From Brachyhypopomus gauderio (Eukaryota > Chordata > Actinopteri > Gymnotiformes > Hypopomidae): a stretch of DNA of 64,000 bases. This document shows positions 6,901 through 59,728 of this stretch, one piece after another. Under the pieces are notes generated by a model. It did not search any database, was not told where the DNA came from, and saw only the letters and a program-made list of their open reading frames with translations. The stretch spans positions 24,716,101 to 24,780,100 of the forward strand of contig NC_135218.1 in NCBI RefSeq assembly GCF_052324685.1, given 5' to 3'. Every line of letters begins with the position of its first letter. The first letter of the stretch is position 1. Made by a program: the position numbers and the translations under genes.

Positions 6901-7240
6901 ATCCATCCACCCATCCTAATGAGCTTTGCCCACCATCAAGCCTATCCCCCCCTCCCTCCAAAGACCCATTTGAGATCTTTAGCCATTCTTACATCCATCT
7001 GCCTGCCTCCGTGAACCAAGAAGCCTGTGTAGATGTTGATTAATGCATACAATGTGAGTTAATGTATTCCCACCGCTTAATATAAACACACACACTCAAA
7101 TTCACTCACGTGCACTGAAATTGTCTCTCAGGCGATATTGCTCCCCTTATATTCATGTGGGGTGCTTTTTCTGCTTTGTTTCTCTCTTTTGATTTATTTA
7201 TTTTTTCCATTTTTAGTTAAACCTGGAGCTTGTGTTTTGA

Positions 7241-7300
<60 letters not shown>

Positions 7301-10153
7301 GATGGTGTTTGCATATTGGTCTTTAGTGTGTGACGGATCAGTGTCGATGCCTGCCAGTGTTCGGCCTCCATGATTTGATTTGTTATGTCATGTGGCATAT
7401 GCATATCTCTCTCTATCTCTCTCTTTCTCACCCCCCCCCCCCCCCCCCTTTTTCCTATTTTTCTTTCTTTTTCTTCTTTCATATCCTCGCTCACTCACTC
7501 TCCAATCTATCAACAACCAATCACGGGCTCCCTTTCATTTGACGCATATTGACGTTTTGTTCTTGTCGATGACCAAAAATATAAATAATTTTTCCTGGAT
7601 CGCTTCTGTGTTCAGTGTTGCTTACTGGGTGGGTTGCTTTCTCTTCTCTTCTGCCTCTTCTCTTCTCTCACTCTTGCTCTGTCACTCTTTCTTTCTCCTC
7701 CTAACTCTCTATGGCTCCGTTTCTGTACTTCTCACTCTTTCAGTTTTCAGTTCTTCCCCCTCTTACATCTTTGTGGTCCCTTTTCGTTCAGTATTGACTG
7801 GCTCTCACGTTTTCTGCATCTTTTCTCTCTGAACATCTCCCCCCCCCCCCCCCTCCCCCCTCCCCCATGTCTCTGTATGAAGCATTATGAAGGGGTGAGA
7901 TCTGGGCTGCAAAGTGTTTTTGATTGGTCCATATGCTGCATCCGATGCTTGCTGATTGGCTAATGTATGCTCATTCTTGGTCGTGTAATGAACTATAATT
8001 GGCTGAATGTGATCTTGCTGAATGGTGTGCACACTCTTCTGAATATCATCATGTTTGAACTCTTGCTCTCTCTTCTCTCCCATTTTTTAGAGATGGAATG
8101 CACCGTTTTGTATTTAGTTTTTTTTTTTCCTTTGCTTTGACACAGATTTATTTCCGGGTTTTGTGTTTTATTTATTTATGTAGTCGTTTCTTTATTGATC
8201 TGTGTTTGATGATCAGTGGAGATGCTGTGCATGAAGGGACGATCTTTACGCAATATAAGGGAATATCATCGAGCTCACAATTTCTGCTCTATCTCCTCAG
8301 CCGAGGACAATATTGTCACACCTGCCCCAGTGAAATATTCTAGAATATTCTGTCATGCTCTAAATTTTAGTTCTGATCACTGTGTATGATGTGCAGAGCT
8401 TGGGTCAGTACATTTGTTTGGTAACACATTAAAATGTCAGATACAAGCTGCATAAAATTTGCATTACTAAAACCGCTGAACTGTGTGATGAATAGTTACA
8501 ACTCTGTCATAACTATAATCCCTTGAATTTGTACATAATGAATAAATCAGTTGATTGGATCAAAATAAATCTAAATAAATCTGCATAATCCTATAATCTG
8601 AGTCTGGGATGTGGATGAGGTGGTTGCACTGAGACGTTGTGTCTCCCTGTCTTTCTTGCGGTCAGGTAAACAACGCCACAGCCCGAGTCATGACCAATAA
8701 GAAGCTGGTTAGCCCCTATGCTAATGGCGAGGGCCTAAACGCTCTGCCTTACGGTAAATACATGCACACAGACAACACACACGCACATCACCCTTTTAAG
8801 ACATGCTGCGTTACACGGGATGTGGGCTGTTGCTTTCAGCCACAGCCATGCTTGACGAGCGATGTCTACGCCAAGCCTGTGTTTTAGTCAGGTTTCAGCG
8901 AGATGGTTTTCCCCTGTCTCCTGGTGTCCCTGCCCAAACTCCTTTCTCATCCCCAGTAGCTGGTTGGAAGCTGAGTCCCATGGTAGGGGCGATGTACGGC
9001 CCGGAGCTCTACGCAGGTGAGACTCTGGGTATGTGCCGTCTTATTACACACGTTATAACATGCCTGCTGCTACGACGCGTCGCCTTACGTTCGCGGCTGC
9101 CGCGAGAAACCTGCTGAAGCCCTGGTGGTTTGTGGAGGGAATCGTATGAAGTGCCCTCTGTTGCTGGCTCAGTTCCAGGGTTTCCGTATCCCACGGCAGC
9201 AGCGGCGGCCGCCGCTACGACGGCCGCAACCTTTCGAGGGGCTCACCTCCGGGGCCGCGGGCGGCCCGTGTACGGGGCAGTGCGTGCAGCCGTCCCACAG
9301 CCTGCCATTCCAGCATACCCAGGGTAAGACACACACACACACACACACACACTTCCAGTTCAGAATGGCTACAGTGTTCTTCCCTGTTCAAACCCACCTA
9401 ATTTAACTATGTCCTTCATTAGCTAAATCAGGTGAATTGTAGCATGGAAGACACTGCTTTCATGATGTAACATTCACATTATAGAGGACGTTCCAACAAC
9501 TCATATCGGCCAGCCCACTCAAACGATGAAACATTACTGAATCAGACTCAATTAACCGATCATTATACTCGAAAGTCTAGCTAGGTAAAATATATTTCTA
9601 CATATGTCTCCGCTGTTTTGTGGTTTAAAATACACTTTCACCGTCACCATCATTTCTGCATGTTGCATGCATCATTTTTGGGTGTGCTGTGCTTTTAAGA
9701 TTCATAACCGAATGGTGAATGTGTGATTTGAGCTAGTCGCAGAAGTGATGCCAAAAATGCCATCTTCATTTCCACCGGTTCAGCTGCCCCGTCCCCCAAA
9801 GCCTCTACGACTGCTTAGTGCAGCAGGCCAGGTGTAGCGAGCGTTACTCCAGATTCAGCCCGTGTTTTCAGAACAGTGTGACGTGGTGCCCAGCCTCTAT
9901 AAGCCGGGGTCTATCAGTGATGAAAGTGGCATTTTTTTTAACTGTGCACTGCATGTGTGTGTTCTAATTTCCTCACATCTTTTTCTCTTTCCCCTTACTG
10001 TTGTTTTCTGTCCTTCTGTTCACCATCTCCGTGTCTCCTGCCACTCCTCACATGGCCACTTGGTGGCGCTCTTCCCCCACATTTGCTTCCCCCTCTCTTT
10101 TCACCTTTTCTTCACCCATTTCCTCATCTTCCTCCCCTCTCCTCCTTCTTTTT

Positions 10154-11635: not shown

Positions 11636-14600
11636 TTCCATCTCCTTTTTACCCTCCCTCACCTTTCTTCTTTTATATTGTTTTACCTTCCATCCATCTC
11701 TCCACATCTCTCTATCAATACAAAACTCTTAATACCCCCGTCCCATTCTGACCCCCCCCCCCCCTTCCCCATCCCAGCAGGCGTGTGGTGGAATGTGGGA
11801 GTTTTACTTGACTGGCTCTAGGGTAGAATGCAGTGGTGTGATTGGCAGAAATCGCTTGTTATTGTGTTCAGTTTGGGGTGCATGCTGTCTGTCTGTACGT
11901 ATGTATGTGTGGCTGTCTGTCCGTCCACCTGTCTGTCTGTGTGGTTGTGGCTACACGAGTGTGAATGAATGTTTCCCTTAATCTCACTCTTTATCTGTCT
12001 GTCTGTCTGTAATGGCACCAGTAATTGACTTGCTCACCCTTTGTCCTGTGCAGCGTGCATTGGGGTTTGGGGGGAGAGATATGGCACCAAAGCTATGCAC
12101 ACTTAATTACGTGTGATTTCAGTTTGTGTCTTCCTCATTGGCAAACTTAAATGGCATTTGACAGTTTTAGGCATATTGCACTACACCATTCCAAGTTTTG
12201 AAATGATTTCATAGGCAGGATTGCCAGTGAGGAAGAGACACACTCACAGCCAAACAGCAAAACTCAACTACGTTTTCAGAATGTGGTTTGCATCTGATCA
12301 TTAATGGCAGTTTGCTTGTTATTCGGTATCGTATCTTGCTTAATGCTTAATGTGTTTCTCCTACCAACCTGTAATATTTAGGCTTGCACCCGTGCATGGG
12401 TGTTAACTGGAGCTTTCATGATCTATATGCTCTCTGTCCCTCTCCATCCCCCTCTCTCTCTCTCTCTGTAGGGGGGTTATGCAGCCTATCGCTACGCTCA
12501 GCCAGCGGCAGTAGCCGGCCCAACAGCAGCAGCAGCAGCTGCAGCTGCAGCAGCCTACAGTGACAGGTTAGTGAATTAGCATCAGAGCTAACCAGTCCTC
12601 ACTCACAGGTTAGTGAATTAGCATCAGAGCTGACCAGTCCTCACTCACAGGTTAGTGAATTAGCATCAGAGCTAACCAGTCCTGACTCACAGGTTAGTGA
12701 ATTAGCATCAGAGCTAACCAGTCCTCACTCACAGGTTAGTGAATTAGCATCAGAGCTAACCAGTCCTGACTCACAGGTTAGTGAATTAGCATCAGAGCTA
12801 ACCAGTATCCTCACTCACAGGTTAGTGAATTAGCATCAGAGCTAACCAGTCCTCACTCACAGGTTAGTGAATTAGCATCAGAGCTAACCAGTCCTGACTC
12901 ACAGGTTAGTGAATTAGCATCAGAGCTAACCAGTCCTCACTCACAGGTTAGTGAATTAGCATCAGAGCTAACCTGCGTCCTCACTCACAGGTTAGTGAAT
13001 TAGCATCAGAGCTAACCAGTCCTCACTCACAGGTTAGTGAATTAGCATCAGAGCTAACCAGTCCTCACTCACAGGTTAGTGAATTAGCATCAGAGCTAAC
13101 CAGTCCTGACTCACAGGTTAGTGAATTAGCATCAGAGCTAACCAGTATCCTCACTCACAGGTTAGTGAATTAGCATCAGAGCTAACCAGTCCTCACTCAC
13201 AGGTTAGTGAATTAGCATCAGAGCTAACCAGTCCTGACTCACAGGTTAGTGAATTAGCATCAGAGCTAACCAGTCCTCACTCACAGGTTAGTGAATTAGC
13301 ATCAGAGCTAACCAGTCCTGACTCACAGGTTAGTGAATTAGCATCAGAGCTAACCAGTCCTCACTCACAGGTTAGTGAATTAGCATCAGAGCTAACCAGT
13401 CCTGACTCACAGGTTAGTGAATTAGCATCAGAGCTAACCAGTATCCTCACTCACAGGTTAGTGAATTAGCATCAGAGCTAACCAGTCCTCACTCACAGGT
13501 TAGTGAATTAGCATCAGAGCTAACCAGTCCTGACTCACAGGTTAGTGAATTAGCATCAGAGCTAACCAGTCCTCACTCACAGGTTAGTGAATTAGCATCA
13601 GAGCTAACCTGCGTCCTCACTCACAGATTAGTGAATTAGCATCAGAGCTAACCAGTCCTCACTCACAGGTTAGTGAATTAGCATCAGAGCTAACCAGTCC
13701 TCACTCACAGGTTAGTGAATTAGCATCAGAGCTAACCAGTCCTGACTCACAGGTTAGTGAATTAGCATCAGAGCTAACCAGTATCCTCACTCACAGGTTA
13801 GTGAATTAGCATCAGAGCTAACCAGTCCTCACTCACAGGTTAGTGAATTAGCATCAGAGCTAACCAGTATCCTCACTCACAGGTTAGTGAATTAGCATCA
13901 GAGCTAACCAGTCCTCACTCACAGGTTAGTGAATTAGCATCAGAGCTAACCAGTCCTGACTCACAGGTTAGTGAATTAGCATCAGAGCTAACCAGTCCTC
14001 ACTCACAGGTTAGTGAATTAGCATCAGAGCTAACCTGCGTCCTCACTCACAGGTTAGTGAATTAGCATCAGAGCTAACCAGTCCTCACTCACAGGTTAGT
14101 GAATTAGCATCAGAGCTAACCAGTCCTCACTCACAGGTTAGTGAATTAGCATCAGAGCTAACCAGCATCCTCACTCACAGGTTCGTGAATTAGCATCAGA
14201 GCTAACCAGTCCTCACTCACAGGTTAGTGAATTAGCATCAGAGCTAACCAGTCCTCACTCACAGGTTAGTGAATTAGCATCAGAGCTAACCTGCGTCCTC
14301 ACTCACAGGTTAGTGAATTAGCATCAGAGCTAACCTGCGTCCTCACTCACAGGTTAGTGAATTAGCATCAGAGCTAACCAGTCCTCACTCACAGGTTAGT
14401 GAATTAGCATCAGAGCTAACCAGTCCTGACTCACAGGTTAGTGAATTAGCATCAGAGCTAACCAGTCCTCACTCACAAGTTAGTGAATTAGCATCAGAGC
14501 TAACCAGCGTCCTCACTCACAGGTTCGTGAATTAGCATCAGAGCTAACCAGTCCTCACTCACAGGTTAGTGAATTAGCATCAGAGCTAACCAGTCCTGAC

Positions 14601-16845
14601 TCCCAGGTTGGTGAATTAGCATCAGAGCTAACCAGTCCTCACTCACAGGTTAGTGAATTAGCATCAGAACTAACCTGCATCCTCACTCACAGGTTAGTGA
14701 ATTAGCATCAGAGCTAACCAGTCCTCACTCTCAAGTGAACTAGCATCAGAGCTAAACAGTCCTGACTCACAGGTTAGTGAATTAGCATAAGAGCTAACCA
14801 GTCCTCACTCACAGGTTAGTGAATTAGCATCAGAGCTAACCAGTCCTCACTCACAGGTTAGTGAATTAGCATCAGAGCTAACCAGTCCTGACTCACAGGT
14901 TAGTGAATTAGCATCAGAGCTAACCAGTCCTCACTCACAAGTTAGTGAATTAGCATCAGAGCTAACCAGCGTCCTCACTCACAGGTTCGTGAATTAGCAT
15001 CAGAGCTAACCAGTCCTCACTCACAGGTTAGTGAATTAGCATCAGAGCTAACCAGTCCTGACTCTCAGGTTGGTGAATTAGCATCAGAGCTAACCAGTCC
15101 TCACTCACAGGTTAGTGAATTAGCATCAGAACTAACCTGCATCCTCACTCACAGGTTAGTGAATTAGCATCAGAGCTAACCAGTCCTCACTCTCAAGTTA
15201 GTGAACTAGCATCAGAGCTAAACAGTCCTGACTCACAGGTTAGTGAATTAGCATAAGAGCTAACCAGTCCTCACTCACAGGTTAGTGAATTAGCATCAGA
15301 GCTAACCAGTCCTCACTCACAGGTTAGTGAATTAGCATCAGAGCTAACCAGTCCTCACTCTCAAGTTAGTGAACTAGCATCAGAGCTAAACAGTCCTGAC
15401 TCACAGGTTAGTGAATTAGCATTAGAGCTAACCAGTCCTCACTTACAGGTTAGTGAATTAGCATCAGAGCTAACCAGTCCTCACTCACAGGTTAGTGAAT
15501 TAGCATCAGAGCTAACCTGCGTCCTCACTCACAGGTTAGTGAATTAGCATCAGAGCTAACCAGTCCTCACTCACAGGTTAGTGAATTAGCATCAGAGCTA
15601 ACCAGTCCTGACTCACAGGTTAGTGAATTAGCATCAGAGCTAACCAGTATCCTCACTCACACGTTAGTGAATTAGCATCAGAGCTAACCAGTATCCTCAC
15701 TCACACGTTAGTGAATTAGCATCAGAGCTAACCAGTCCTGACTCACAAGTTAGTGAATTAGCATCAGAACTAACCTGCATCCTCACTCACAGGTTAGTGA
15801 ATTAGCATCAGAGCTAACCAGTACTCACTCACAAGTTAGTGAACTAGCATCAGAGCTAACCAGTCCTCACTCACAGGTTAGTGAATTAGCATCAGAGCTA
15901 ACCAGTCCTCACTCTCAAGTTAGTGAACTAGCATCAGAGCTAACCAGTCCTGACTCACAGGTTAGTGAATTAGCATCAGAGCTAACCAGTCCTCACTCAC
16001 AGGTTAGTGAATTAGCATCAGAGCTAACCAGCGTCCTCACTCACAGGTTTGTGAATTAGCATCAGAGCTAACCAGTCCTCACTCACAGGTTTGTGAATTA
16101 GCATCAGAGCTAACCAGTCCTGACTCACAGGTTAGTGAATTAGCATCAGAGCTAACCAGTCCTCACTCACAAGTTAGTGAACTAGCATCAGAGCTAACCA
16201 GTCCTCACTCACAGGTTAGTGAATTAGCATCAGAGCTAACCAGTCCTGACTCACAAGTTAGTGAATTAGCATCAGAGCTAACCAGTCCTGACTCACAGGT
16301 TAGTGAATTAGCATCAGAGCTAACCAGTCCTCACTCACAGGTTAGTGAATTAGCATCAGAGCTAACCAGTCCTCACTCACAGGTTAGTGAATTAGCATCA
16401 GAGCTAACCAGTGTCCTCACTCACAGGTTAGTGAATTAGCATCAGAGCTAACCAGTCCTCACTCACAGATTAGTGAATTAGCATCAAAGCAGCTTTCCCC
16501 TCTGCGGACCAACTTCCATTTCAACCCCCCAGAAATGGTTGTCAACAGCAGTCATAACAGATGTACATTGTAAAACAACTCCCCCCCCGGTTCCTTCCTC
16601 AGCTACGGCCGTGTGTACGCAGCGGACCCATACGCCACGGCGCTAGCCGCCCCAGCAGCTGCTGCATACGGAGTTGGAGCTATGGTACATATTTACCTAT
16701 TTTAAGGACTATCACTTATAGAGTGTGAAAGTCTTAGATTGTCTCAGGTAAATTGTCTAGGTGTAGCATCTGTGGGTTAACCTGGTTCTTTCTTCCGCAG
16801 GCCACCCTCTATAGGGGAGGATACAGCAGGTTCTCCCCATACTAA
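773..16845 (+). CDS. rbfox2: RNA-binding protein Fox-1 homolog 2, 3' portion (11 exons)
   Basis: Splicing regulator that binds (U)GCAUG in nuclear pre-mRNA through one RRM. Coding exons: 773-979, 1427-1591, 1952-2005, 3657-3749, 8666-8753, 8957-9016, 9173-9323, 10234-10276, 12472-12566, 16603-16684, 16801-16845. All join in frame and give about 360 residues from the first exon seen. That exon opens in phase 0 with no obvious start (a Met lies 6 codons in), so the 5' exons lie outside the window. The RRM is split: RNP2 (LHVSNIPF) is in exon 2 and RNP1 (GFGFVTFE) in exon 4. The Ala/Tyr/Gly-rich C-terminus has [22 protein letters not shown] and ends [16 protein letters not shown]...WKLSP and PELYA favour RBFOX2 over RBFOX1/3 (remembered human proteins), and so does synteny. 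Exon 5 reads on past PYANG with EGLNALPY, unlike the human protein I recall. Confidence 0.93.
2338..2641 (+). repeat. 38-bp minisatellite, 8 copies, each with TGCATG
   Basis: Eight near-identical 38-bp units lie head to tail in rbfox2 intron 3. Each holds TGCATG in the sense orientation, at 2356, 2394, 2432, 2470, 2508, 2546, 2584 and 2622. Units differ mainly at one position (gactg or gaccg). TGCATG is the high-affinity RBFOX site. Confidence 0.97.
3657..3749 (+). other. rbfox2: rbfox2 93-nt RRM exon (candidate autoregulated exon)
   Basis: The exon is exactly 93 nt, phase 0 on both sides, with acceptor ccccag and donor gtgagt. It encodes 31 residues that begin with RNP1 (GFGFVTFE). In mammals the equivalent 93-nt exon is skipped under Fox autoregulation, giving a protein that lacks half the RRM and acts as a dominant negative (established for RBFOX2). 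Skipping here would also keep the frame. TGCATG/GCATG motifs lie on both sides: an array about 1 kb upstream and a cluster 187-390 nt downstream. Confidence 0.85.
3750..8665 (+). other. rbfox2 intron 4 (4.9 kb)
   Basis: No exon was recognised. It holds (GT)n tracts near 3851-3902 and 7241-7300, CT-rich low-complexity DNA near 5290-5405, C runs near 7433-7449 and 7841-7860, and a GCATG cluster at 3936-4139. Open frames here are low-complexity artefacts. Confidence 0.7.
3936..4139 (+). promoter_or_regulatory. GCATG cluster downstream of the 93-nt exon
   Basis: GCATG occurs at 3936, 3955, 3979 (as TGCATG at 3978), 4082 and 4135, that is 187-390 nt after the rbfox2 exon 4 donor. Downstream Fox sites usually promote exon inclusion (established for the family). 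Whether they work here is inference. Confidence 0.45.
10826..10868 (+). other. rbfox2: Probable alternative rbfox2 exon (muscle M43-type)
   Basis: This 43-nt segment follows a pyrimidine-rich tract (ctgttctccccgtag) and ends CAG before gtaggg. Spliced after exon 7 (phase 2) it reads [15 protein letters not shown] and rejoins exon 9 in phase 0. The length and pattern match the mammalian muscle exon, which reads VVYQEPVYGNKLLQ as I remember it. The 10234-10276 exon ([14 protein letters not shown]) is the brain B40 counterpart, one codon longer. Divergence from the mammalian peptide is high, so this could be a decaying or lineage-specific exon. Confidence 0.6.
12567..16490 (+). repeat. ~93-copy 42-bp minisatellite starting at the exon 9 splice donor
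   Basis: The array fills most of rbfox2 intron 9. It begins exactly at the exon 9 donor (GACAG then gttagt), and each unit repeats CACAG-GTTAGT. The basic unit is 42 bp, with 44-bp variants containing 'tatcc' or 'tgcgtcc'. Variants recur in the same order (for example the same nine-unit series near 12.8-13.2 kb and 13.4-13.8 kb), so there is higher-order repetition. Each unit also has CTAAC about 17 nt before its CAG. Units become more diverged towards the 3' end. Confidence 0.97.
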
Positions 16846-41408: not shown

Positions 41409-44083
41409 TTGCATGCAGTGTGAGGTACGAGGACCCTGGTGCAGTAGAAAGCCTGGCAGAAGCCTTAGATAATCGTCTCCAGGTCACAGGAGGGGTCAGT
41501 ATTAACTACACCAAGACACTACCTGAACTCACTCATCTGCACTGTCCATCTGTCCCACTTTTAACTGTTTCATACGGTAAAGCTGAGTTTAGCAATAAGA
41601 ATCAAACCTTGCATGTGTTGGATGTTGCTTAATCTAACAGTTGTGCTTTTTCTTAATTTTTTTTGTTGAACTTTTAGTCTGCTTTACCAACAGACTTAAC
41701 TTTCGTGTTTCACTAACATACTAATCCACACTGTGTTTGCCTGCGTGATTGTGTGAAGGATGAATCTGCAGGTTGGCTGCGTCAGTCTCAGTGGATATAC
41801 AGTGAGGGTCTGGTGGGTTCCAGTGCTAACACTGTACACTCCATACTCCATAATCAGCAACACTGCATGAACCACACTGCACACTCGGTTGATAAACTGG
41901 TCCACAGATACACTAAACAAAATTGTACTCGGTGATGTGATCGGCAGACTGATACCCGGTTCAGTGGAGGTGTTGAAGAGGCTCAGGCTTCCACAGCAGA
42001 TTAGCATTCCTTAAAGCTGCTGTAATCAGTTCTTGCACTGATCACTTCTGTCAGACAGCCACTGATGGAATCCACCCCTCCCTCCAACGTCACACCCCCT
42101 GTCTGAACCTTTCTCCACATCCCCTCTAGCAACAGCAGATACGTATGACGGATGTATACTGACGAAAAGACGATTTAAGCTCAACATTATTCAAAACAAA
42201 ATGGCCAACGTCCGTGCCTAACCAGTTCATATTGTCAGGAATACAGGGACCCTGACTGGCTAAACTGAATTACACTCCATCCAAACAAATCCAGCTGGCG
42301 ATTGTTTGGAGTAAAGACACAGCCCAGTGCGTAGCCCTATAGTGAAGACACAGCCCAGTGCGTAGCCCTATAGTGAAGACACAGCCCAGTGCGTAGCCCT
42401 ATAGTGAAGACACAGCCCAGTGCGTAGCCCTATAGTGAAGACACAGCCCAGTGCGTAGCCCTATAGTGAAGACACAGCCCAGTGCGTAGCCCTATAGTGA
42501 AGACACAGCCCAGTGCGTAGCCCTATAGTGAAGACACAGCCCTGTGCGTAGCCCTATAGTGAAGACACAGCCCTGTGCGTAGCCCTATAGTGAAGACACA
42601 GCCCTGTGCGTAGCCCTATAGTGAAGACACAGCCCTGTGCGTAGCCCTATAGTGAAGACACAGCCCTGTGCGTAGCCCTATAGTGAAGACACAGCCCTGT
42701 GCGTAGCCCTATAGTGAAGACACAGCCCTGTGCGTAGCCCTATAGTGAAGACACAGCCCTGTGCGTAGCCCTATAGTGAAGACACAGCCCTGTGCGTAGC
42801 CCTATAGTGAAGACACAGCCCTGTGCGTAGCCCTATAGTGAAGCCCTTTCAGTCTATGGAACCTTCAGTGGTTTAACATCTGGTGAAGGTGAGACTGAAC
42901 TTGTGCATTTAAAGGTGCTGTGTGTGCATTTAAAGATGCTGTCTGTGAGAATTATGTAAAGGTGTTCTTTATAGTAAAACTGCAAAAAAGGTGCTTTCTG
43001 TAGTGCACACTGTAATGAAACTCGGGCCACTGGCTGTGATGTGAAGTTGAGTGATGGCTGTCTCACTTCACCTGCAGCTTCACTTCAAATATAAACCATG
43101 ACGACCCCTGACCTATCCCTTGAAGCAACTGAAACATAAAAAAAATATCTACTATATAAAATTGCCACAAAACTGTTACACTTTGAACACCCTTTAGGGC
43201 TTTAATCATATTAGAGAATGTGTGAAGAATGCATTGACCAGGGACACGTGTGTGTGTGCGTGCATGTGTGTGCATGCATGTGTGTGTGTGTATGTGTGTG
43301 TGTGCGTGGGTGTGTGTCTCCCGGCTTCAAAGACTGGGCTGGTGAATGGATGCATAAAGTGTTGCCGCTAATTTGCAGAAAACTTTAAATAGCTTTGGGC
43401 TTTCAGCTGTTCATTTGCCTAAATGATAACAGTCACTTCAGTGACTCTTTATCTGGCAATTGATTTCTCTGAAGGAGAAAATAAGACAATACACTTCAAA
43501 TCAATGAAGATTCTTCACAATTCAGTGAAGTCATTGAAGATTTTTTTTGTATTCCAGAAATTGTTTTACACTGTTCTTTGTTGGTTTTATGTCGCATAGA
43601 TGCCAGCACCACAAAATGCTGCTATGGATGACATTGAGAAATGGCTGTCCACAGAAACGGTAAACCAGGCATTTCGACTACTCGTTGATTTTCTTGGTCT
43701 GCAGGCATTACCGTATAAGCAGTTCATCTAAGAATGCAATAAAAGTCTGAAATAGCGCAATAGCTCCATCTGGTGGTTAGAAAAAATCAACGTGGAATGT
43801 TTTGTTCTTGTTTCTTGAATTCTTTAATAATAATCTGTTATTGGATACCAAAGTCATTAAACACAAAGCCTAGTTAAAAATATTAAAACATGAAATTAAC
43901 TGAACGTGGCTGACCATTGTGACCATTTGACCATGTGATGAATCTGATTGTAATGTTTGTATATGTAATCAATGTTTGTTTATGTGACAGCTGTGATACT
44001 GATGGCTGCAAATGTGTTTATTACGTTTTCAGCATGATGCTGAGGATGATGAAGAAGGGGTTACCAGTGAAGGTGAGCGCATG

Positions 44084-44544: not shown

Positions 44545-46254
44545 CGGACTCGGGAGTGATCGGAGAGGTGGACCGGGTGCTCTCTGTGCAGGAACATTCC
44601 TAGGGCCTTTTGTGTAAATGTAATGATAGCAGATAATGAGATTTTTTTTTTTAAGAGAGGATTGTTTTGTTGTTTTTTTGTTTTGAGAGAGAGATATCCA
44701 CTCAGGGTAGGTTAGCATAACGTTATAATGTCAAATAATGACTACTACATGCTTATTGAAGGCAAGATTAATTACTATTTTTTTAAACCTCCTTGAGGCA
44801 AAGGCGATGTATTTTCTGAATCTGTGTGTGTTAAATACACATGTAGAAATTAACACCTCCCTGCAGGTGTGTCACCAGCTACAAGTTTATTATGCAGCAC
44901 CTAAAGTCTGTGCTGGCCATGGAATTTGAGCTTCGACACTCCTGACTAGGTGAATATATCACAGATCCTTTAGTCACAAACTGCAAAAAAAACCCCAAAA
45001 ACAAAAAAGCCCTCATGTCTGCCCCACAACTGAGTTTTACTTACAGACCGACCAGTCTAGACCAGTTCAGTTCCTTTTATTAGTGTTCTGAACATTATTC
45101 AAAGTCTTCTACGCCAGGACAGCCTGTAGCTAACTGTCCTAGCCAGTGGACACTGGGCAAGCAGTCTCACTTCATAAGCATTTGAGATGCACTGCAAGGG
45201 GATTAATGAACAGAAAACGACTTTGCCTTGGGGTAATAAAAATGAACTGCACTTTTATTGCTAAATTAAAACAGTCTGGTTACGGAGATGATCAATGATC
45301 TCCCCGAGTCTGCGTTTGCCTCGGAGTGCCGTTCTGAGTACCTTATCCTGCACTGTCGGACACAGCAGCAATTACTGAATCTACCTGAAGGTGTGTAGCA
45401 TATGAAGGATTGTACTGTGATATCCCTGCATTTTTATTTTATAGGTAATGTATGAAGTTAATGTGCATGTAAGCTTAGACTAAAATATAAATGTGTATTA
45501 ATAATCACCACTGATCTGAGTGATAGTAAATTAAAGATGTTTTGGCTGTCTTTAACTTGGTCTCTACAATGACTTGTTTTCTTAGGATTGTCTGGACTGG
45601 TAACCTGGGGTTTTACACTTTCTTTAGTACATGTTGATTCAACATGTTTCAGATATGATGTAAAGTGATTCTGCTGCTCGTTAGGTTAGGATTGAAGGAT
45701 ATGCTCACGTAGTCAAATCACTCCGCTGCTTTTCGGGGAAAAGTGAAACCGCTCGCTCTTTTGTTTAGAAATACCCAGCGCGATCAGGTGCGCAGAGCAA
45801 ACCCAGACCAAGGGAAGTGTTTTGGAACGCAAAACGGCAAACCGTCATTTCCCACCACCACTGAAGACAACTTGGGAGTTTTTTATATCCATAATGTTCC
45901 CGGAAGGCGTGATTTTTGTAACGTACCAAGCTAACATGTGTACCACCACCTTGAGTTGTCTGAATCTGGGTTACTGTGTTCTGATTCTGTGATTCAGGCT
46001 GCGGCGAGTTCGTTGTTTAGCGGAATAGGCGCTATGGGCTTGTTGAAACTGCGCTCAAGGATGTCTGCTTCCCAGGAAGGGCACAGCGACCCCTAAACAA
46101 CGCACAGACACAGAAGAGAGATGCAGGTTCAATTACACTCCGATGGGTGCTCAATAACAGACGTGTCGTTTAGATGCGCTATAAGACTGATTGCATTGAA
46201 TCCATTTGCATTTCAGCACCTTTTTTTAGACTTTCCTGTGCCGCCTGTATCAAA
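44545..46254 (+). other. tom1 3'UTR and spacer to the noggin-like gene
   Basis: After the tom1 stop, AATAAA at 45235-45240 is a plausible polyadenylation signal. The remainder, to the noggin-like ATG, shows no coding exon. Confidence 0.5.
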
Positions 46255-47121
46255 ATGAATGTATGTTTCAGTTGGCACTGTACTTTTCTCTTGTTGTGGA
46301 CCAGTGTACCTGTGCGTGTCCTCTCGTCTGGTGACGGTGGACCTACCAAAGACGCTTTGATGAACATATTGGACATAGAGCCACAGTTGTCTCTTTTGCG
46401 TAACAGGGACCTAATTACTTCTGCGCAGGGAGTTCGTCCTTATACTCTCTTGCTAAACAAAGAGAACTACCATTACGGCCCGAAGCCCAAGCACCGGCGA
46501 CCTGCTAGGCTCTTTCGTCTTTTGGGTTCATCTTTCGACCCGTTCTGGATGGCCATCGAACGGCCAGCCGAAGCAGACACGCGTCTGTCGGCTGGTGGGT
46601 TATTGGACCAAACCTCACCAGGGAACCACACGTCGTCCTTTACAAACTCCACGACAAGCAGCAGCTTCAACATCGCGGGATCCACCGAGCTGACGGCGAG
46701 CGCTGCGCGGTATCGGCAGAAACTAGAAGAGGAAGCGAAACAGTTGGACCTGGGCACGTTGCCGTCCGATGCTGCAGCTTTGTTAAGGACCTGGCTGGTG
46801 CAGTCGGCCACCTGCGGTCTGCGCTACAAGTGGGTGGACATGGGTCCCGTGTTCTGGCCCCGCTGGGTACGGCACACGGACTGTGATGAAGCCGGGAGCG
46901 CGCGGACCTGCTCGTTTCCCAGCGGAATGGTGTGTCGGCGCGCGCAGGTAACTTATGTGAAAATACTCGCGTGGCACTGTTGGGGGCGCGAGGAGCACGT
47001 GGGGGAGTGCGCGCGACAGGCCAAGGGTGCAGGCGAGACGGGTGCGTGCTTCTGGAGAAAGTGTCTATGGAGACAGGTTCCCTACCCAGTAGTTACAGCG
47101 TGTAAATGTGCCTGTAAATAA
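46255..47121 (+). CDS. Noggin-family secreted antagonist, divergent
   Basis: A single-exon gene, as in noggins, of 288 residues (human noggin 232). I chose the ATG at 46255 because a signal peptide follows (MNVCFSWHCTFLLLWTSVPV); an in-frame Met 27 codons upstream would bury it. Noggin marks: RLLGSSFDPFWMAIERP (noggin LLGGHYDPGFM-type motif), WLVQSATCGLRYKWVDMGPVFWPRWV, TCSFPSGMVC and the terminal PVVTACKCACK. Two NxS/T sites (NHT, NST) lie in the variable middle. Differences: the basic heparin-binding stretch before the Cys domain is replaced by an acidic/neutral one, and a segment of about 17 residues with two extra Cys is inserted before the final Cys group. Noggins bind and block BMPs; some divergent noggins act on other ligands. 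It could be the noggin-4/5 type, which I cannot confirm. Confidence 0.88.
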   Translation: MNVCFSWHCTFLLLWTSVPVRVLSSGDGGPTKDALMNILDIEPQLSLLRNRDLITSAQGVRPYTLLLNKENYHYGPKPKHRRPARLFRLLGSSFDPFWMAIERPAEADTRLSAGGLLDQTSPGNHTSSFTNSTTSSSFNIAGSTELTASAARYRQKLEEEAKQLDLGTLPSDAAALLRTWLVQSATCGLRYKWVDMGPVFWPRWVRHTDCDEAGSARTCSFPSGMVCRRAQVTYVKILAWHCWGREEHVGECARQAKGAGETGACFWRKCLWRQVPYPVVTACKCACK

Positions 47122-47815: not shown

Positions 47816-47997
47816 TTAAAATGCGTAGACTCCCATGCCGACCGTCAGAAGCACAGCCAGACCGAAGAGCATCCTGAGGAACTGTGAGCTGGAGACCAGG
47901 GATGGTGGTACTTCCACACTCCTGCTCGTACAGGGCTCTGAGGGAGGGAGGGAGGGTTGTTGACATGCTGCAAAGTGTATCGAACTCTGGCCTTCAT

Positions 47998-48030
<33 letters not shown>

Positions 48031-49744
48031 ACCTGGCGTCTTTAGGCTGTGTGTTGTGTGTCTCTGCCTCAGTTCAGTCTCCCCTGAAGTGCTCAGCAAG
48101 TTCTGCAGGTCATCGAACACCTGACAGCAAAAACCAAACGTGTGTTTACATTAGCCCGTCTCGCTCTGCACCACAGGCGACATTTACCGAAGCCCAGGGG
48201 GAGAAAATGCAGAGTCATGATAAAAATCACACCGCGATGGAGGTGTAGGTGGTGCTCCAACCTGGATGTTGAGCTCAAAGGCGGTGACGGCCTCCTGCAG
48301 GACAGCCTCCTTCTGGAGCTGCGTCAGGACGATGCTGTTCATCCTGCTTCGGTACAGCTGCTTGAACAGATTTGGGCTGCTGACGCCAGGGAAGGAGAAG
48401 AACGACAAACCCTCTCCGCTCTTCAGCCCCAGAGACTTCTGGGCAATGCGGCCCAGCACCTGACCCCCCGACAGGTCGCCCAGGTAACGGGTGTAAGCGT
48501 GGGACACGAGGTACTCCGGGTGCTCCCTGCCAATCTGGGGGAGGGGAGAAATACATTTTATTACAACGCTTTGTTTACAGTGTGGAATTATTCATTAGGA
48601 CCGGGTGCAGTTATGTTGCTATGTTGCTAGTTATGTTGCCGTATATTCCCAGACCTCATGGTTGTGTTTTACATGCTCCAAAACAACCGTTTCAGCTCAC
48701 GTACCAATAATAAAACATCTATAGCTGAATCAACCATGTAAGCAGTGTTCCACAGGTCTGGGTTTGAAAAGGAAGTACGTAGATACATCTGCTGCATTTC
48801 CAAAAATTAACTTGTTGGGTGTTTTTATCTGGTACCTCTCTGAGCCTCTGAGCGTATCTCAGTGTAGCAGCAGGGACAACAAGCTGCTCCTTCCAAGCTG
48901 GACCATAGAAGTTCTCCAGATCTTTCTTGATGGACTCCAGCCTGGCCAGCTCCTGGGGGAAGTAAATTGGTGCGACACCATCATGGGTACGGTTCCTGTC
49001 CAGTTCCTCTTCCAGGGCCTCATAGATCTTGTATAACGAGCACAGGAGGAGCTGAGGAAGGAGACAAAAAAGAAAGAAAAAGTTAATTTTGCTTCAGATC
49101 ATTTTCTTCTTATTTATTACCAGCAAACCCCAGTTTCTACACTTCCACAGGCAAGTCTAATCAAGTCTGCTCTACAAATGAGTCCAGCCAGCATTGCACA
49201 CCCATGACAATTCCATTAAGTAAAAACCTTGCTGTGTTAAAGCCGTTTAATCCCATTTTTAAAAGCTGCTCGGGGATGTGGAGCAGAGTCTTGGGAAGGA
49301 TGGCTGACCTTGTACTGTGGCAGGGTCACCTGACCCTTCTGGAAGGCCAGCATCAGCTGGGTGTTCTCAGCTCGGACGTGGCACTCCCTCGTAACCTCCT
49401 TAATCTGCTCAGACAGGTCACTGCGGGGATACAACCAGCACCAGCAGCGTGTTAAATTCACACCTACACCACTTTGGAAGTTATTTTTTTATTTGCAAGT
49501 CCTTTTTAAAAGTGGTAAACACTTGAAATAAAAGCTAAACGACCATTTATTTTCACTGTTTTTCACATCCCCCTGAAACACAGACCGTTATCTTCAGTGG
49601 TGTTGTGTGTAATATGTAACTAAGGTCGTGATTGTGGGTAGTCGTGGTTGAAAGGTGCAGTGTGTAGTTGCAAGAGTTGTTTTGCATGTACCTGTCTGTG
49701 ACACTGGTTCCCTCAGCCAGTTGGCTCTTCTGATGGGCTTCCAT
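47816..49744 (-). CDS. hmox1: Heme oxygenase 1
   Basis: Microsomal enzyme that degrades heme to biliverdin, CO and iron. Minus-strand exons: 49744-49692, 49420-49309, 49051-48836, 48534-48262, 48120-48033, 47937-47816. All phases match; 287 residues (human 288). The heme-ligand region [10 protein letters not shown] gives the proximal His (about residue 32). The distal helix has [15 protein letters not shown], and [11 protein letters not shown] is present. The last exon gives a C-terminal membrane anchor ([21 protein letters not shown]). An intron splits the region that is one large exon in human HMOX1 as I recall it, between QRLRE and IGREHPEYL. It is tail to tail with the noggin-like gene. 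It is probably induced by NRF2/small MAF and repressed by BACH1 through the promoter repeats at 50163-50402. HMOX2 is less likely: no heme regulatory Cys-Pro motifs, and the neighbour is tom1. Confidence 0.96.
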
Positions 49745-49948
49745 TTCTGTGAATTAAACCACGATAAGAATTAGAACGGCTTCTGATTCTCCAAAGACAA
49801 GGACCAAACATTTAACTGTACATCTAGTCATCTCAAAGTGATGATGCAGACATATAAGCACCAGTAATTCAGTCGTTCTAAAACAAAAAAGTTATACACA
49901 ATATAGTTTCCATATTCAAAACATTATTATTGAAATAATTCTACTCAC

Positions 49949-50027
49949 TCAGAGTTGAGCTGGTGTCGTGTCGTAGTCCGTGAGATTAGTTTCTGTATTT
50001 CGCCTCTGAGGTCAGGTCCTCTGGAGT
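49949..50027 (-). other. hmox1: hmox1 5' untranslated exon
   Basis: On the minus strand a donor (CTGA then gtgagt) at 49948-49947 ends a segment lying just downstream of a TATA box. The coding ATG exon starts about 200 nt further on. The 5' edge (start site near 50027) is estimated from the TATA position. An acceptor for the ATG exon was not fixed. Confidence 0.5.
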
Positions 50028-50053
50028 CTGGAGTGACACCGAGAAGTCGCCTC

Positions 50054-50060
50054 TTTTATA
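50054..50060 (-). promoter_or_regulatory. hmox1 TATA box
   Basis: Minus-strand TATAAAA, about 310 nt upstream of the hmox1 ATG and about 100 nt downstream of the ARE repeat array. Confidence 0.65.
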
Positions 50061-50162
50061 CCGTCTCTCACGCGCCCTGCCTCCGCGCCTCCTCCCTCAC
50101 GCGCTCAGCCCAGACAAACAGGATGCAGCGCTCAGAACAAAGAGCGAGGGGCGGGATCGCGC

Positions 50163-50402
50163 TAACCGTGACACAGCACACCGGACGGCCTGGCGGAGCA
50201 ACGGGGGAGGGATCGCGCTAACCGTGACACAGCACACCGGACGGCCTGGCGGAGTAACGGGGGCGGGATCGCGCTAACCGTGACACAGCACACCGGACGG
50301 CCTGGCGGAGTAACGGGGGCGGGATCGCGCTAACCGTGACACAGCACACCGGACGGCCTGGCGGAGTAACGGGGGCGGGATCGCGCTAACCGTGACACAG
50401 CC
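50163..50402 (-). promoter_or_regulatory. Tandem array of five antioxidant response elements
   Basis: A 56-bp repeat carries TAACCGTGACACAGCA at 50163, 50219, 50275, 50331 and 50387 (plus-strand reading). This fits the extended ARE consensus TMAnnRTGAYnnnGCR; the fifth copy has C at the last position. On the hmox1 strand it reads TGCTGTGTCA, the stress-response/MARE half-site form known from mammalian HMOX1 enhancers. Each unit also has a GC-box-like stretch. The array lies 135-375 nt upstream of the inferred start site. Confidence 0.85.
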
Positions 50403-50492
50403 TGGACCATGTACAGCAGCAGAGAAGATGGAGGAAGGAGGCGGGCTCAGCACTAACCATGAATCGCTACATTCTTCAGTCTGCGAGGGAGG

Positions 50493-50552: not shown

Positions 50553-51115
50553 TGAAATCATGACTTGTTAAATCACATGACCTTAATTCCTGTTGTTGAC
50601 ACAATGTGGCTGAATACACGTTCAGATACGAGTACAAATTTTAGCAGCACAGCAAAAGCTGATATGACAAATGATAACAATTTTAACAAACACTTTCACC
50701 ATAGTCTTGGATTTGTGCATTTTGTTCGTGGTTTGTTGGAGCAGAGCTAAAAGCTTACAGCTTAACCAATATTTTTGTTCATCTCACAATTAGCTACGAC
50801 TCTAGTCCGATCATTCACAATTTTGTGTTTCAGTAGGTAACGTGAGACTTGATGAGAAAATAACCTAGAAAGAGCATTTTTACCTTTTTACACGTATAGT
50901 CCTGGCATAATTGTTAAATAATAAATGTGCATAAAACGGCATAAATAGGTGTGTTCTACTTACACACCCAGTGATTAATATCTTTTTATTGTTCTTTATC
51001 CTTGCATAACCTGTGCTGGAACTAATGACTAAGTGTTTCTCCCAAGTGGCTGAACTGTGATTTGGGCGTTAGAGCTTTGTTTTGATAAGGATGGCTGCGT
51101 CTTTAAATCTGAACC

Positions 51116-51126
51116 GTGACTAAGCA
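51116..51126 (+). promoter_or_regulatory. Isolated ARE-like site 1.1 kb upstream of hmox1
   Basis: GTGACTAAGCA fits RTGACnnnGC and is followed by A/T-rich bases. A single match of this length can occur by chance. Confidence 0.35.
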
Positions 51127-51488
51127 AAACACCAGGCGGCGCCAGACTACATGTAAATGACTTATTCACCAGAGGGTAAGCGTGAGTAAGCGGAAACCTC
51201 TCCGCTAAGCATGAGTACGCGGAAATCGCTCTTTAGTTTTTGCAAAACGGCAAAAATGACGGCATTACGAAAGCGCTGCTCAACTAGACTTTATTTTACT
51301 TTATAGCAAGTACACAAACCAAATGTGACATAATATTTGTTCAGTAGATGAACATTGTTGGTTCGTGAGGCACCTCAGACAAATAACTATAATGGCAGAA
51401 TAATTTCCATATGAAGCAGAGTGCGTTACGGTCAATTCCGTTCCCCCAATACTGCGCATGCGCGAAATCATAACGCGTTAGTCTGCTG

Positions 51489-51640
51489 CAGAGCCATATA
51501 GAGAGATATATATGGCTATATACGTATGCAGAGCCATATAGAGAGATATATATGGCTATATACGTATGCAGAGCCATATAGAGAGATATATATGGCTATA
51601 TATGTATAGCTCTATATATGTATAGCTCTATATGGCTCTG
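51489..51640 (+). repeat. 40-bp AT-rich repeat bounded by an inverted repeat
   Basis: Three 40-bp units (starting 51489, 51529, 51569) begin cagagccatatagag. The segment closes with the exact reverse complement, ctctatatggctctg (51626-51640). Single strands could fold into a long hairpin. Confidence 0.85.
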
Positions 51641-52830
51641 TTACAAACAAGACGTGCACCTGACCGTCTCGCCGCAACGAGCATGCGCCAGAAATCAGTC
51701 CATCAACGCTAATGTGAAGTAGTGATGGGCAAATGAAGCGTCATGAAGCAATGAAGCTTTCCAACTCTTTGCTTTGCAAAAAGGTTCATTACTTGAGGCT
51801 TCATTCATCACTCACTAGTGACATCTGCTGGTGAAACTGTAACAGCCTTGTCATTCAGTTGGATCATACTTTCAAAAATTTGTAAATGCAATATTGTCAC
51901 AAAGTTTCCATCAAACTCATGTTTAGTAACAGGAGAATAAATTAAATCATACTTAATTGTCATGTTTTAATTACTAAAATGATTTAAAGTCAATCTAATC
52001 CTTGACCATCAGTGGTTGTGTTGGGTTTTCTTGTATGTCATGGATTTATTTGACAATGAAGATATGTTGTACTTTACTATATTGGGAATTGAGTGATTGT
52101 TGAGGCAGATTGTTCCGTTTAGATTTTTTTTCCCAACAGCTCATTAAGATCACAAAGCACTTCATTTCAACTGCTGGCGTATTAGATTTTTAGATTTTAG
52201 ATTTGTACTGGTATTTTTTATTTATAATTTTTAATTACAAAGTGCTTCTATAATTTTTTTTCCCACAACACTGAGTGATTCCTGCATTCTTTCCTTGATC
52301 TGGAAAACATTTATGTTACTAATGGTTATACCATAATTTTTTCCAGGATTTGTAATGTCTGGAGTAAAGGAATATTTACCTGGTTTGTTTACACGAAAGA
52401 TGAGCCTTCGTTGGCAAACCCACGTGCACAAAAGACGAGCTCTCATTGGCAAACACACACGCGCGCTAAGACGCGTTACGTGTTTGATGGTTGTGTTTGG
52501 GCTGGATTCCTATGATGTCACTCTGTTTATCAGCTCAACTAGAGCTCTGACACCGAAAGGAAGCAAGCCAAGATCCTGCCGAATCTGATTCTCTTCTGAC
52601 CAAAAAAAGACGACTATTTCAGACAAGTTTTTTTGCTTTTCTTAACAAAGACAAACTGCATCTGAACCTCTAAAAGAACGTGGATGAACTTGTCTATTGT
52701 GCTTCGGTTTTAACTAGCCTCCGAGAATACAGAGAGTAGAGCGATTCAAATCTTTAAAAGTAACCACGAGGTGGCACTGTTTCGCATCTTTTCATTAAAT
52801 CGTCTAATTTAATTTGTGATGGCCGATATA

Positions 52831-56792: not shown

Positions 56793-56837
<45 letters not shown>

Positions 56838-59728
56838 CCTGCATGTTCCCCGCAGGTGAAGAGAAAGGTTCTGACCGCGTACCAGATCTTCTGTAAGGAG
56901 TACAGGATCAGCATCTTAGAAGAACAGCCTGGACTGGGTCAGTACTTTCACACACGGCCATTCAGCAGATGCTCTTTTCCTGAACGACCTTGAAGAGAGT
57001 CGACAGCCAAAAGTGCTTGAAAGAGCCAAAAGAGCTCAGAGGCATTTCATCCCTGCATAGTTTTAAGAGCAGTCTCAAAACATTCCTGTTTAGATCCACT
57101 TTTAGTTAAGAAACTCTATCTTAATAGTTTTATCTTATTTACTTTATTTTTTATTATCTTATTTACTTTTTGGCTTTTTATGTTATTTTAATATTTTTAT
57201 CTTTAATTTCTTTTAACATTTTCTTTTTGTCTTATCTCCTTTTAATGTTTCTTTTTATTTATACTGTAAAGCACTTTGAGTTACATGTATGTATGAAAGG
57301 TGCTATACAAATAAAGATTATTGAGGTTCATGTACATACAGAGTGCTAGCTTGGTCAGGATTCTTATAGTTTGTACAAGTCAGTCACCAAACGTGAGTTT
57401 TTATGTGTATTTTAACATGTTATTAGGTAATTGCCAACCTGGGGCATCATGTGAAGGTTATGATATAATTTGTTGTTGTTGATGAGATGTTTATCATAGA
57501 TTCGCTGTAAACATTTCAATGTCTTGCCTTGTCTAGTAACTTCACTTTAAAAGCGTATAGAAATGGAACGAGCATACCGTAATATTTGATTGTAACAGCA
57601 CACCCTGCTGTAGAACTGCGGTACTGCGGCTGGTCTTGCTTGGACAGGTGATGCTAACTTCAAACTGGGGTCTGCTTTTGTGATGTTCTTTGCTGCAGAT
57701 TTCGGGGATTTGAGTAAGAAGCTCGCAGATGCTTGGAAGCAGCTGCCCGAGGGGGACAAACAGGTGAGTGTGAGGAGCGCACGTGAGAACGTGAGAAAAT
57801 GCGCTGTGTGCCTTAGGAAGCGTCTCATTGGTTGCTTTCTGCTGGTGTCGCTCAGGTGTGGCGGGAGCGGGCGGAGTACCTACAGCACAAACACACGAAG
57901 TCCGAGGCAGCCGCAGGCAAACACAGCAAACACAGCCAGCCCAGACCTGCCAAAGACACCAGCAAAACTAAAGGCTAGTAGCCCGCCACTGCTATTGGCT
58001 GCTGAGGCCTTAACCCCGCCCCCCCCCTGCTCTGTCATATTCATGCTTAATGGATGAATCAGAAGAGCCAGGCACTTAGCTTAGCAGGCCAAACCTGCAA
58101 CACGGGCGAGAAACAGGAACTTTTGTGTTTCTTTCATTCAGTAAGCATGGACAAATGGCATTTCATTGTTATTTAATAATTACATGCCTCTGTGCAGTAC
58201 AGTGATCCTTTACATTGTTAAAGATTTCAGCAGTAAATTCCATTCGTAATTCCACTCTGAAGCAGACTAAAGCCCTTAACCCTCACCCCACTCCCTCCAC
58301 AGGGGTTGCAACCTTCCCGGGCGTCGTTACCTCACCTACTGGAACGTCTGCATCAGGTGTTCCGAAGAGGGCGGAGCCAGTGGTTGCCCTGGCGCAGAAC
58401 GGGTCGGTTCCTGTTCCTGTAGCCGAGGCCTTGTCCTCCCCGCACAGGGACCCGGACGTGGACCCCATCGATGCCGCCGCCCACCTGCAGCTTCTGGGGG
58501 AGTCGCTCTCTCTGATTGGCCGCAGGCTGCAGGAGACGGAAGTATGACTGGTTTCCATGAAGCACTTCCTCATTGTTGACTTGTGGCAGGAACTCCTGGT
58601 GGTTTCTAGTAGCTACGTCTGGTGTGGTGAAGAGGGCGTGGCCAGTGGGTCGATAGAATAGCACTGCAGTCACATAGCACAGAAACTCATACTGATCTCA
58701 CTTATATCAAAGGCTCACACTTTGATTTCAGGTGTTCTCACGCCAATGCAAAACGTCGCCTTTGTAGGTCTGCACAAGACTTAAAGGGAGATAGACATGA
58801 CTGATGTGATAAACTGCAGTGTTCATGATTAACTCTTAAATGTGTGTGTGTGTGTATGTATGTGTGTGTGTAGGGTATGGTGACCGTGTCCGGTTCCCTC
58901 TCGGTCCTCCTGGACTCTATGCTTTGTGCTCTGGCTCCATTGGCTTGTCTCACCTCTCAGGTGCCAGAACTCAACGGCTGTCCTGCTCACATACTGGTAC
59001 GAGCTCCTCGATGCACGGAGCTTCACCACACACCACCTCCATCTTCCTCCACCCTCATCATCCCACTGCTATAACGCTGTTACAGTTGTAATTACTTAGG
59101 CATACATCATACGTGGTTATAACAGTAGCTTATAACACGAGACCCATCATAACAGTGGCCTGTAACAGAGGAGCTGGTAACTATAGTAGCTTATAACACA
59201 GGGCTGTTCAGGACTATTTCATCCTTAAATAAAAAGACAGTACCTATAGTTCTTCAGGACCGGAGCATGGCACAGCTGACCTCGTCTGGGCTTGATTCAG
59301 TGTTCGTCTGGGGTTGATTCAGTGTTCGTCTGGGGTTGATTCAGCGTTCGTCTGTCGTCTGGGGTTGATTCAGCGTTCGTCTGTCGTCTGGGGTTGATTC
59401 AGCGTTCGTCTGGGGTTGATTCAGCGTTCGTCCGGGGTTGAATCAGCATTCGTCTGGGGTTGAATCGGTGTTCAAGATCCAGTTCATTATTCTCAGAGTT
59501 GAAAATCATCTCACGATGGTCACACTGAGATTCAGAATAAGTTATCGTCTGTGTAAATCACACTGAATCAAGGCCCTGCAACCAAACTACTCACAAACTG
59601 AGGATTGAGTGTTTGTGGTTGATGTTTTTACTGATCTTCTCCATTGAGATTGTTGTACAATATTGCCTTTATCTTTTTTCCAGTCAAACACTCTGGACAA
59701 TATCGCCTACGTAATGCCTGGTCTCTGA
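54917..59728 (+). CDS. hmgxb4: HMG-box containing protein 4
   Basis: Nuclear HMG-box protein; in mammals linked to dampening of Wnt signalling and to chromatin remodelling. Exons: 54917-55045, 55156-55234, 55567-55875, 56216-56416, 56588-56691, 56856-56937, 57699-57763, 57856-57973, 58303-58541, 58874-58996, 59684-59728; 497 residues (human 601). Visible parts: [21 protein letters not shown] at the N-terminus, Lys-rich tracts ([22 protein letters not shown]), the HMG box over exons 6-8 ([44 protein letters not shown]), and a conserved C-terminal domain ([51 protein letters not shown]). The ATG follows an acceptor directly, so translation may start in an upstream exon; this is the least certain point. 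The intron after 57973 appears to use a GC donor. The next gene on this side in human 22q12 is tom1, as here beyond hmox1. Confidence 0.93.
56493..56539 (+). repeat. (GT)n microsatellite in hmgxb4 intron 4
   Basis: A 46-bp GT run lies about 50 nt upstream of the exon at 56588. A 40-bp CT run (56793-56835) serves as the polypyrimidine tract of the following exon. Confidence 0.95.
57030..57325 (+). mobile_element. LINE-2-type 3' fragment
   Basis: In hmgxb4 intron 6. Reads ttaagagcagtctcaaaac...cctgtttagatcc (the SLKTFLFRS-like end of a reverse transcriptase frame), then an AT-rich stretch and tgtaaagcactttgagtt...gtgctatacaaataaag, typical of fish L2 3' ends. Confidence 0.65.
59282..59472 (+). 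repeat. 21-bp minisatellite in the last hmgxb4 intron
   Basis: About eight copies of a gttcgtctggggttgattca unit, some with a tandem 'gtctgtc' insertion. No functional motif recognised. Confidence 0.9.

Follow-up and report, generated by a model that had tools for sequence, protein, structure and literature searches.

Candidate antioxidant response elements in a 56-bp promoter minisatellite upstream of hmox1 in Brachyhypopomus gauderio

The hmox1 locus of Brachyhypopomus gauderio raises the question of whether a tandem array of antioxidant response elements (AREs) represents an inherited regulatory site multiplied beside the core promoter or a repeat that happens to contain an ARE-like word. 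The locus was analysed within a stretch of 64,000 nucleotides of contig NC_135218.1 (positions 24,716,101 to 24,780,100), hereafter the window. A previous sequence-only reading had described five perfect AREs in the hmox1 promoter, multiplied by a minisatellite. The array, its spacing and its position were upheld, and so was the assignment to hmox1; the analysis further supported a CpG-rich proximal promoter and a probable inheritance of the ARE. The word perfect and the full extended match attributed to each copy proved overstated.

The coding region on the minus strand (47816..49744) comprises six exons and 287 codons, with every splice border reading GT or AG. Its product matched Pfam PF01126 with E=5e-72 and HO-1 in the PDB with E=1.2e-76, the top HO-1 entry scoring 260.8 bits versus 225.2 bits for the top animal HO-2, and a hydrophobic C-terminal tail was visible by eye in the translation. 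By homology the gene is hmox1, HO-1-like, as had been proposed. A TATA box, TATAAAA, was read at 50054..50060 on the same strand within the 14-mer GGTATAAAAGAGGC. Inspection by eye with the Inr consensus returned an Inr-like TCCAGA, whose A lies 31 bp downstream of the initial T of that box and would place +1 near 50029, and a GTGAGT donor at 49948; together they would delimit a putative non-coding exon 1 at 49949..50029 on the minus strand. The neighbourhood also contains a noggin ORF (46174-47121, plus strand, PF05806, E=5.2e-31) and ORFs that jointly give an HMG box (56793 to 57978, plus strand, PF00505, E=3.3e-14, exons joined by eye). The array probably does not serve the HMG-box gene, which is several kilobases away.

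TRF analysis located the array at 50148..50401 on the plus strand, upstream of the minus-strand hmox1, with a period of 56 bp, 4.5 copies and 98% matches. Five exact GTGACACAGC cores begin on the plus strand at 50168, 50224, 50280, 50336 and 50392, each 56 bp from the next, in agreement with the five-fold array reported earlier. Counted upstream from the putative start, the cores span the interval from 139 bp (beginning of the nearest) to 372 bp (end of the farthest), close to the 135-375 nt previously given from a TATA-based start. Motif scanning placed ARE copy 1, TAACCGTGACACAGCA, nearest the start at 50163..50178, copies 2, 3 and 4 at 50219..50234, 50275..50290 and 50331..50346, and the distal copy 5 at 50387..50401, all on the plus strand. 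As 56 bp corresponds to 5.33 turns at 10.5 bp per turn, adjacent ARE sites lie on different faces of the helix.

Each unit is more than an ARE. A GC box, GGGGCGGGA, starts 20 bp before the ARE core in four of the five units (50148..50156 in unit 1, repeated at 50260, 50316 and 50372, plus strand), while unit 2 carries GGGGAGGGA at 50204 on the same strand in its place. The CpG observed/expected ratio was 1.15 in the array versus 0.50 in the window, and 35 of the 52 CpGs of 49950-50480 fall inside the array, which thus sits in the CpG-rich, putative proximal promoter of hmox1. The GC boxes and CpG richness might then be what chiefly matters in the repeat, which would set basal rather than induced expression by way of Sp1/KLF factors and an unmethylated island. 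The four GC boxes and the concentration of CpGs are consistent with such a role, but every one of the five ARE cores is intact and the GC box is missing from unit 2, an argument that is weak since it involves one substitution; overall we consider a mainly GC-box function improbable.

The quality of the ARE matches was assessed with TMANNRTGACNNNGC, with the 16-mer TMANNRTGAYNNNGCR and with the 20-mer ARE consensus TMANNRTGAYNNNGCRWWWW, which has 15 informative positions. Many validated AREs do not possess the WWWW tail of the 20-mer, and the tail therefore grades a match rather than defining the ARE class. All five array copies matched TMANNRTGACNNNGC and the core RTGAYNNNGC, the latter as given in the available text of PMC5068245. 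The 16-mer was matched by four of them, the base that follows the distal copy being C where R is required, and the full 20-mer with its WWWW tail by none, so that the full extended match claimed for every copy did not stand. Motif scoring, proposed earlier as a check, gave each copy 12 of the 15 informative positions of the 20-mer and returned three higher-scoring sites in the window. The best of these, TTATCATGACTCTGCATTTT (48204..48223, minus strand, core 48209-48218, 14/15 at 48218), lies between hmox1 coding exons 4 and 5 and is a possible intronic ARE; the others, at 49838 and 51116 on the plus strand, both scored 13/15. The latter is a lone upstream site, AACCGTGACTAAGCA (51112..51126). 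When the array unit was aligned with 50900-52400, which contains it, the score was reached by 1 of 300 shuffles, and its downstream flank gave scores reached by 985 of 5000 shuffles against the array and by 98 of 5000 against the ARE of the hmox1 paralog described below; its kinship with either is uncertain.

Only two substitutions from the array consensus were found, at 50199 and 50208, both outside the AREs. The array looks young or homogenised, and with so few differences its sequence gives no test of constraint on the ARE. A diverged unit copy lies distal to it at 50406..50462 (plus strand; local alignment score 39, reached by none of 2000 dinucleotide shuffles) and is probably older than the array units. 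The motif scan found no RTGAYNNNGC core left in this copy, so that not every copy was kept, a point against the explanation favoured below. A second candidate copy, in the proximal flank (50060-50147), was rejected because its score was reached by 976 of 2000 shuffles.

The number of cores should not be read as improbable in itself. Five copies in exact register are the product of tandem duplication, so five cores in 240 bp amount to one motif and one expansion, and we rejected any argument from their number. The loose core RTGACNNNGC occurred 25 times in the window (shuffle mean 16.05; 25 reached by 4 of 100 shuffles), an unremarkable count, and a sixth exact GTGACACAGC stands isolated at 55970. 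A query of 1.5 units against the 796-Mb genome, with the best candidates scored, matched the array and no other place, and the array was accordingly rejected as a dispersed repeat.

Triplets of the core were nonetheless frequent genome-wide: 7222 versus 4388 in the reversed control for the loose core TGACNNNGC, 222 versus 45 for TGACWCAGCR, and 142 versus 42 for exact GTGACACAGC. The first 100 of the 222 TGACWCAGCR matches listed correspond to 10 loci on C1 to C7 (manual count), and the first 100 of the 142 exact matches listed to 8 loci, the hmox1 array included. Minisatellites with an ARE core are not rare in this genome, and amplification as such needs no adaptive reason; since the same 10-mer occurs in other minisatellites, the motif array taken by itself is weak evidence of function. 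Among the matches listed, many-unit minisatellites with TGACACAGC or TGACTCAGC, some of dozens of copies, were seen at C7:18163115-18164886, C12:14362988-14364233 and C2:39638443-39638932, and further ones at C1:48261253-48261633, C6:26555402-26555941 and C8:23662997-23664414.

This abundance would favour a chance origin, in which the resemblance of the repeat to an ARE is a coincidence unconnected with NRF2. However, extrapolation from the first 100 of the 222 matches listed, with an assumed length for C5, gave about 29 strong-form loci genome-wide, and by our arithmetic the chance that one of them falls in a 600-bp stretch above hmox1 is near 2 in 100,000. In addition, a similar element stands above the identical TATA box of the paralog and shares a flank with the array, as detailed below. 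We regard a purely accidental motif as very improbable.

The paralog provided the best new evidence. Four heme oxygenase loci were found in the genome: the window hmox1, a locus on a different chromosome, C2, near 48.505 Mb, and two others. The domain of the C2 paralog is split over exons as in the window hmox1, whereas most of it lies in one frame at the other two loci; we take the C2 locus to be of HO-1 type and the remaining two to be presumably of HO-2 type. The paralog stretch (L048) contains the same 14-mer GGTATAAAAGAGGC; the TATA within it, at 2578, is one of 15 TATA-like sequences listed for that strand, and the transcription start of the paralog is likewise putative. Of six core matches in L048, two stand 224 and 262 bp above the GGTATAAAAGAGGC box in the orientation of the array, the pair reading TCAACGTGACTCAGCAGGAA (13/15 on the 20-mer) and AAACCATGACAGGGCAGGAA (12/15).

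The paralog ARE at 224 bp, TCAACGTGACTCAGCA, has 8 of 10 upstream flanking bases in common with the array unit, and of the 72 distinct RTGAYNNNGC cores compared, a set without the array copies and L001-L004, it alone exceeds 5 of 10. When two window units were aligned with the region of this ARE, 1 of 500 mononucleotide shuffles scored as high, as did 198 of 5000 shuffles for a local alignment of the 26-bp upstream flanks; the downstream flanks showed no likeness (reached by 3643 of 5000). Alignments with the paralog over the whole promoters (score 42; shuffle mean 31.7, maximum 52 of 300) and over the core promoters (30.5; mean 23.4, maximum 43.5 of 500) stayed within the shuffle range. The related element is array-free: TRF reported no array near the paralog AREs, its only rows in L048 being 4-35, 7061-7094 and 8519-8554. 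TGACnnnGCAGGAAAACA is common to the two paralog cores (L048 2797-2860), at a distance of 38 bp; 3 of 2000 shuffles reach the score of this likeness (66 of 5000 for the downstream flanks alone). The two cores look like an old tandem duplication, and AREs may have been duplicated more than once at hmox1 promoters.

Taken together, these data make a moderately strong case that both hmox1 genes inherited one ARE. As the paralog has a like ARE with a shared upstream flank, the same orientation and the same TATA box, a recent expansion probably captured an ARE that had been inherited, the direction of change being the one we infer. The proposal that a minisatellite multiplied a promoter ARE is therefore strengthened, and on sequence comparison we hold it probable that the ARE was inherited and then amplified.

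How readily such an event could occur was estimated from a sample of 114 kb, namely the window and five 10-kb stretches at chosen round coordinates, hence non-random, in which minisatellites with a period of 15-120 bp and at least 2.5 copies were counted. Seventeen were found, and the hmox1 array was the only one with an RTGAYNNNGC core. They cover about 9% of the sampled bases (10475/114000), or 2.3% when the hmox1 array and three arrays over 1 kb are left out. Two large examples in the window are a 42-bp unit in about 93 copies at 12563-16490 (94% matches) and a 31-bp unit in 17 copies at 42310-42843 (99% matches).

At this density, the chance of an existing ARE being captured by an expansion would be a few per cent, and the expansion might be a neutral passenger: one ARE would be functional, one or two sites would saturate the response, and the added copies would have little or no effect. 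The apparent youth or homogenisation of the array and the decay of the older copy fit this explanation. On the other side, sites added next to the core promoter are likely to have an effect there. Moreover, according to the available text of a zebrafish reporter study, ctr1l promoter strength was higher with two MAREs than with a single one, and MafK repressed the promoter when paired with Bach1b and activated it when paired with Nrf2a (PMC4073273). We judge a neutral passenger unlikely, though less so than the other alternatives. Given published reporters and promoter repeats, an additive role of repeated AREs is plausible.

Comparison with known systems places the array more precisely. The human HMOX1 promoter contains a length-variable (GT)n microsatellite, another repeat at this gene's promoter but a dinucleotide run without AREs and not homologous to the array. 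Mammalian HMOX1 distal enhancers hold several StRE/MARE copies; they likewise offer multiple NRF2/BACH1 sites to one gene, but are distal and dispersed, whereas the candidate sites here form a tandem minisatellite adjoining the core promoter. The array belongs to a known type, the promoter minisatellite repeating a factor-binding site, as it consists of tandem units of more than 10 bp, each with a candidate factor site, in a putative promoter and with predicted binding. A review describes, in the text available, promoter repeats that alter the number of factor sites, including a human repeat of 61 bp (PMC3899988). That repeat resembles ours in unit length and in having factor sites in its copies, and differs in being polymorphic and tested, while NRF2/BACH1-MAF is proposed here from the motif.

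Reporter work in coho salmon showed that Nrf2 activation fell drastically or was lost once the proximal hmox1 ARE had been mutated, and in every promoter examined a core match lay no more than 380 bp from the putative start (PMC5068245). Both loci thus have a proximal ARE core near a putative teleost hmox1 start; the available text on coho mentions no minisatellite and describes a flank with 24% interspersed repeat, in contrast to the five copies with a 56-bp period found here. The human GCLM promoter, as described in the part available of PMC6259123, likewise belongs to an NRF2 target and has several AREs in tandem, but in opposite orientations and with no repeat unit, whereas the five copies share one orientation. 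By visual comparison, the human NQO1 ARE given in the same source, TCACAGTGACTCAGCA, and an array copy have different bases at 3 of 16 positions. A search of the open-licence PMC literature returned no relevant minisatellite carrying an ARE, and the available texts of PMC8594921, PMC9495572 and PMC4967105 gave no fish hmox1 ARE sequence.

On these grounds we propose that an inherited proximal hmox1 ARE was multiplied to five copies by a local 56-bp minisatellite expansion and that each copy would be bound by a small-MAF heterodimer. The bZIP/MAF factors are assumed to be encoded, as in vertebrates generally. At low heme, BACH1-MAF on the ARE would repress hmox1, and heme or electrophiles would exchange BACH1 for NRF2, whereupon the promoter would fire. 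The repeated sites, four of the five units having a GC box, would raise occupancy and might widen the range between repressed and induced hmox1. By judgement rather than calculation, binding of the array ARE by NRF2/BACH1-MAF is predicted as likely, and whether copy number matters for the hmox1 response is evenly balanced. The multiplied inherited ARE acting as a regulated NRF2/BACH1 site array is, as a whole explanation, the one we lean towards. The interpretation advanced in the sequence-only reading is plausible and now has better support than the motif array alone could give.

A further-reaching proposal is that the array is a length-variable rheostat, whose unit number would differ between alleles and grade hmox1 inducibility, its expansion having been kept by selection for heme or oxidative tolerance. 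We consider this quite improbable; if true, the diverged distal copy and the paralog's core pair would be what is left of AREs duplicated repeatedly in hmox1 promoters. If copy number does matter, the array would offer a naturally occurring dose series for one NRF2/BACH1 site at its best-known target gene, the paralog would provide a one- or two-site control within the same genome, and the way in which the number of sites sets gain and range in the response to oxidative stress would become directly testable.
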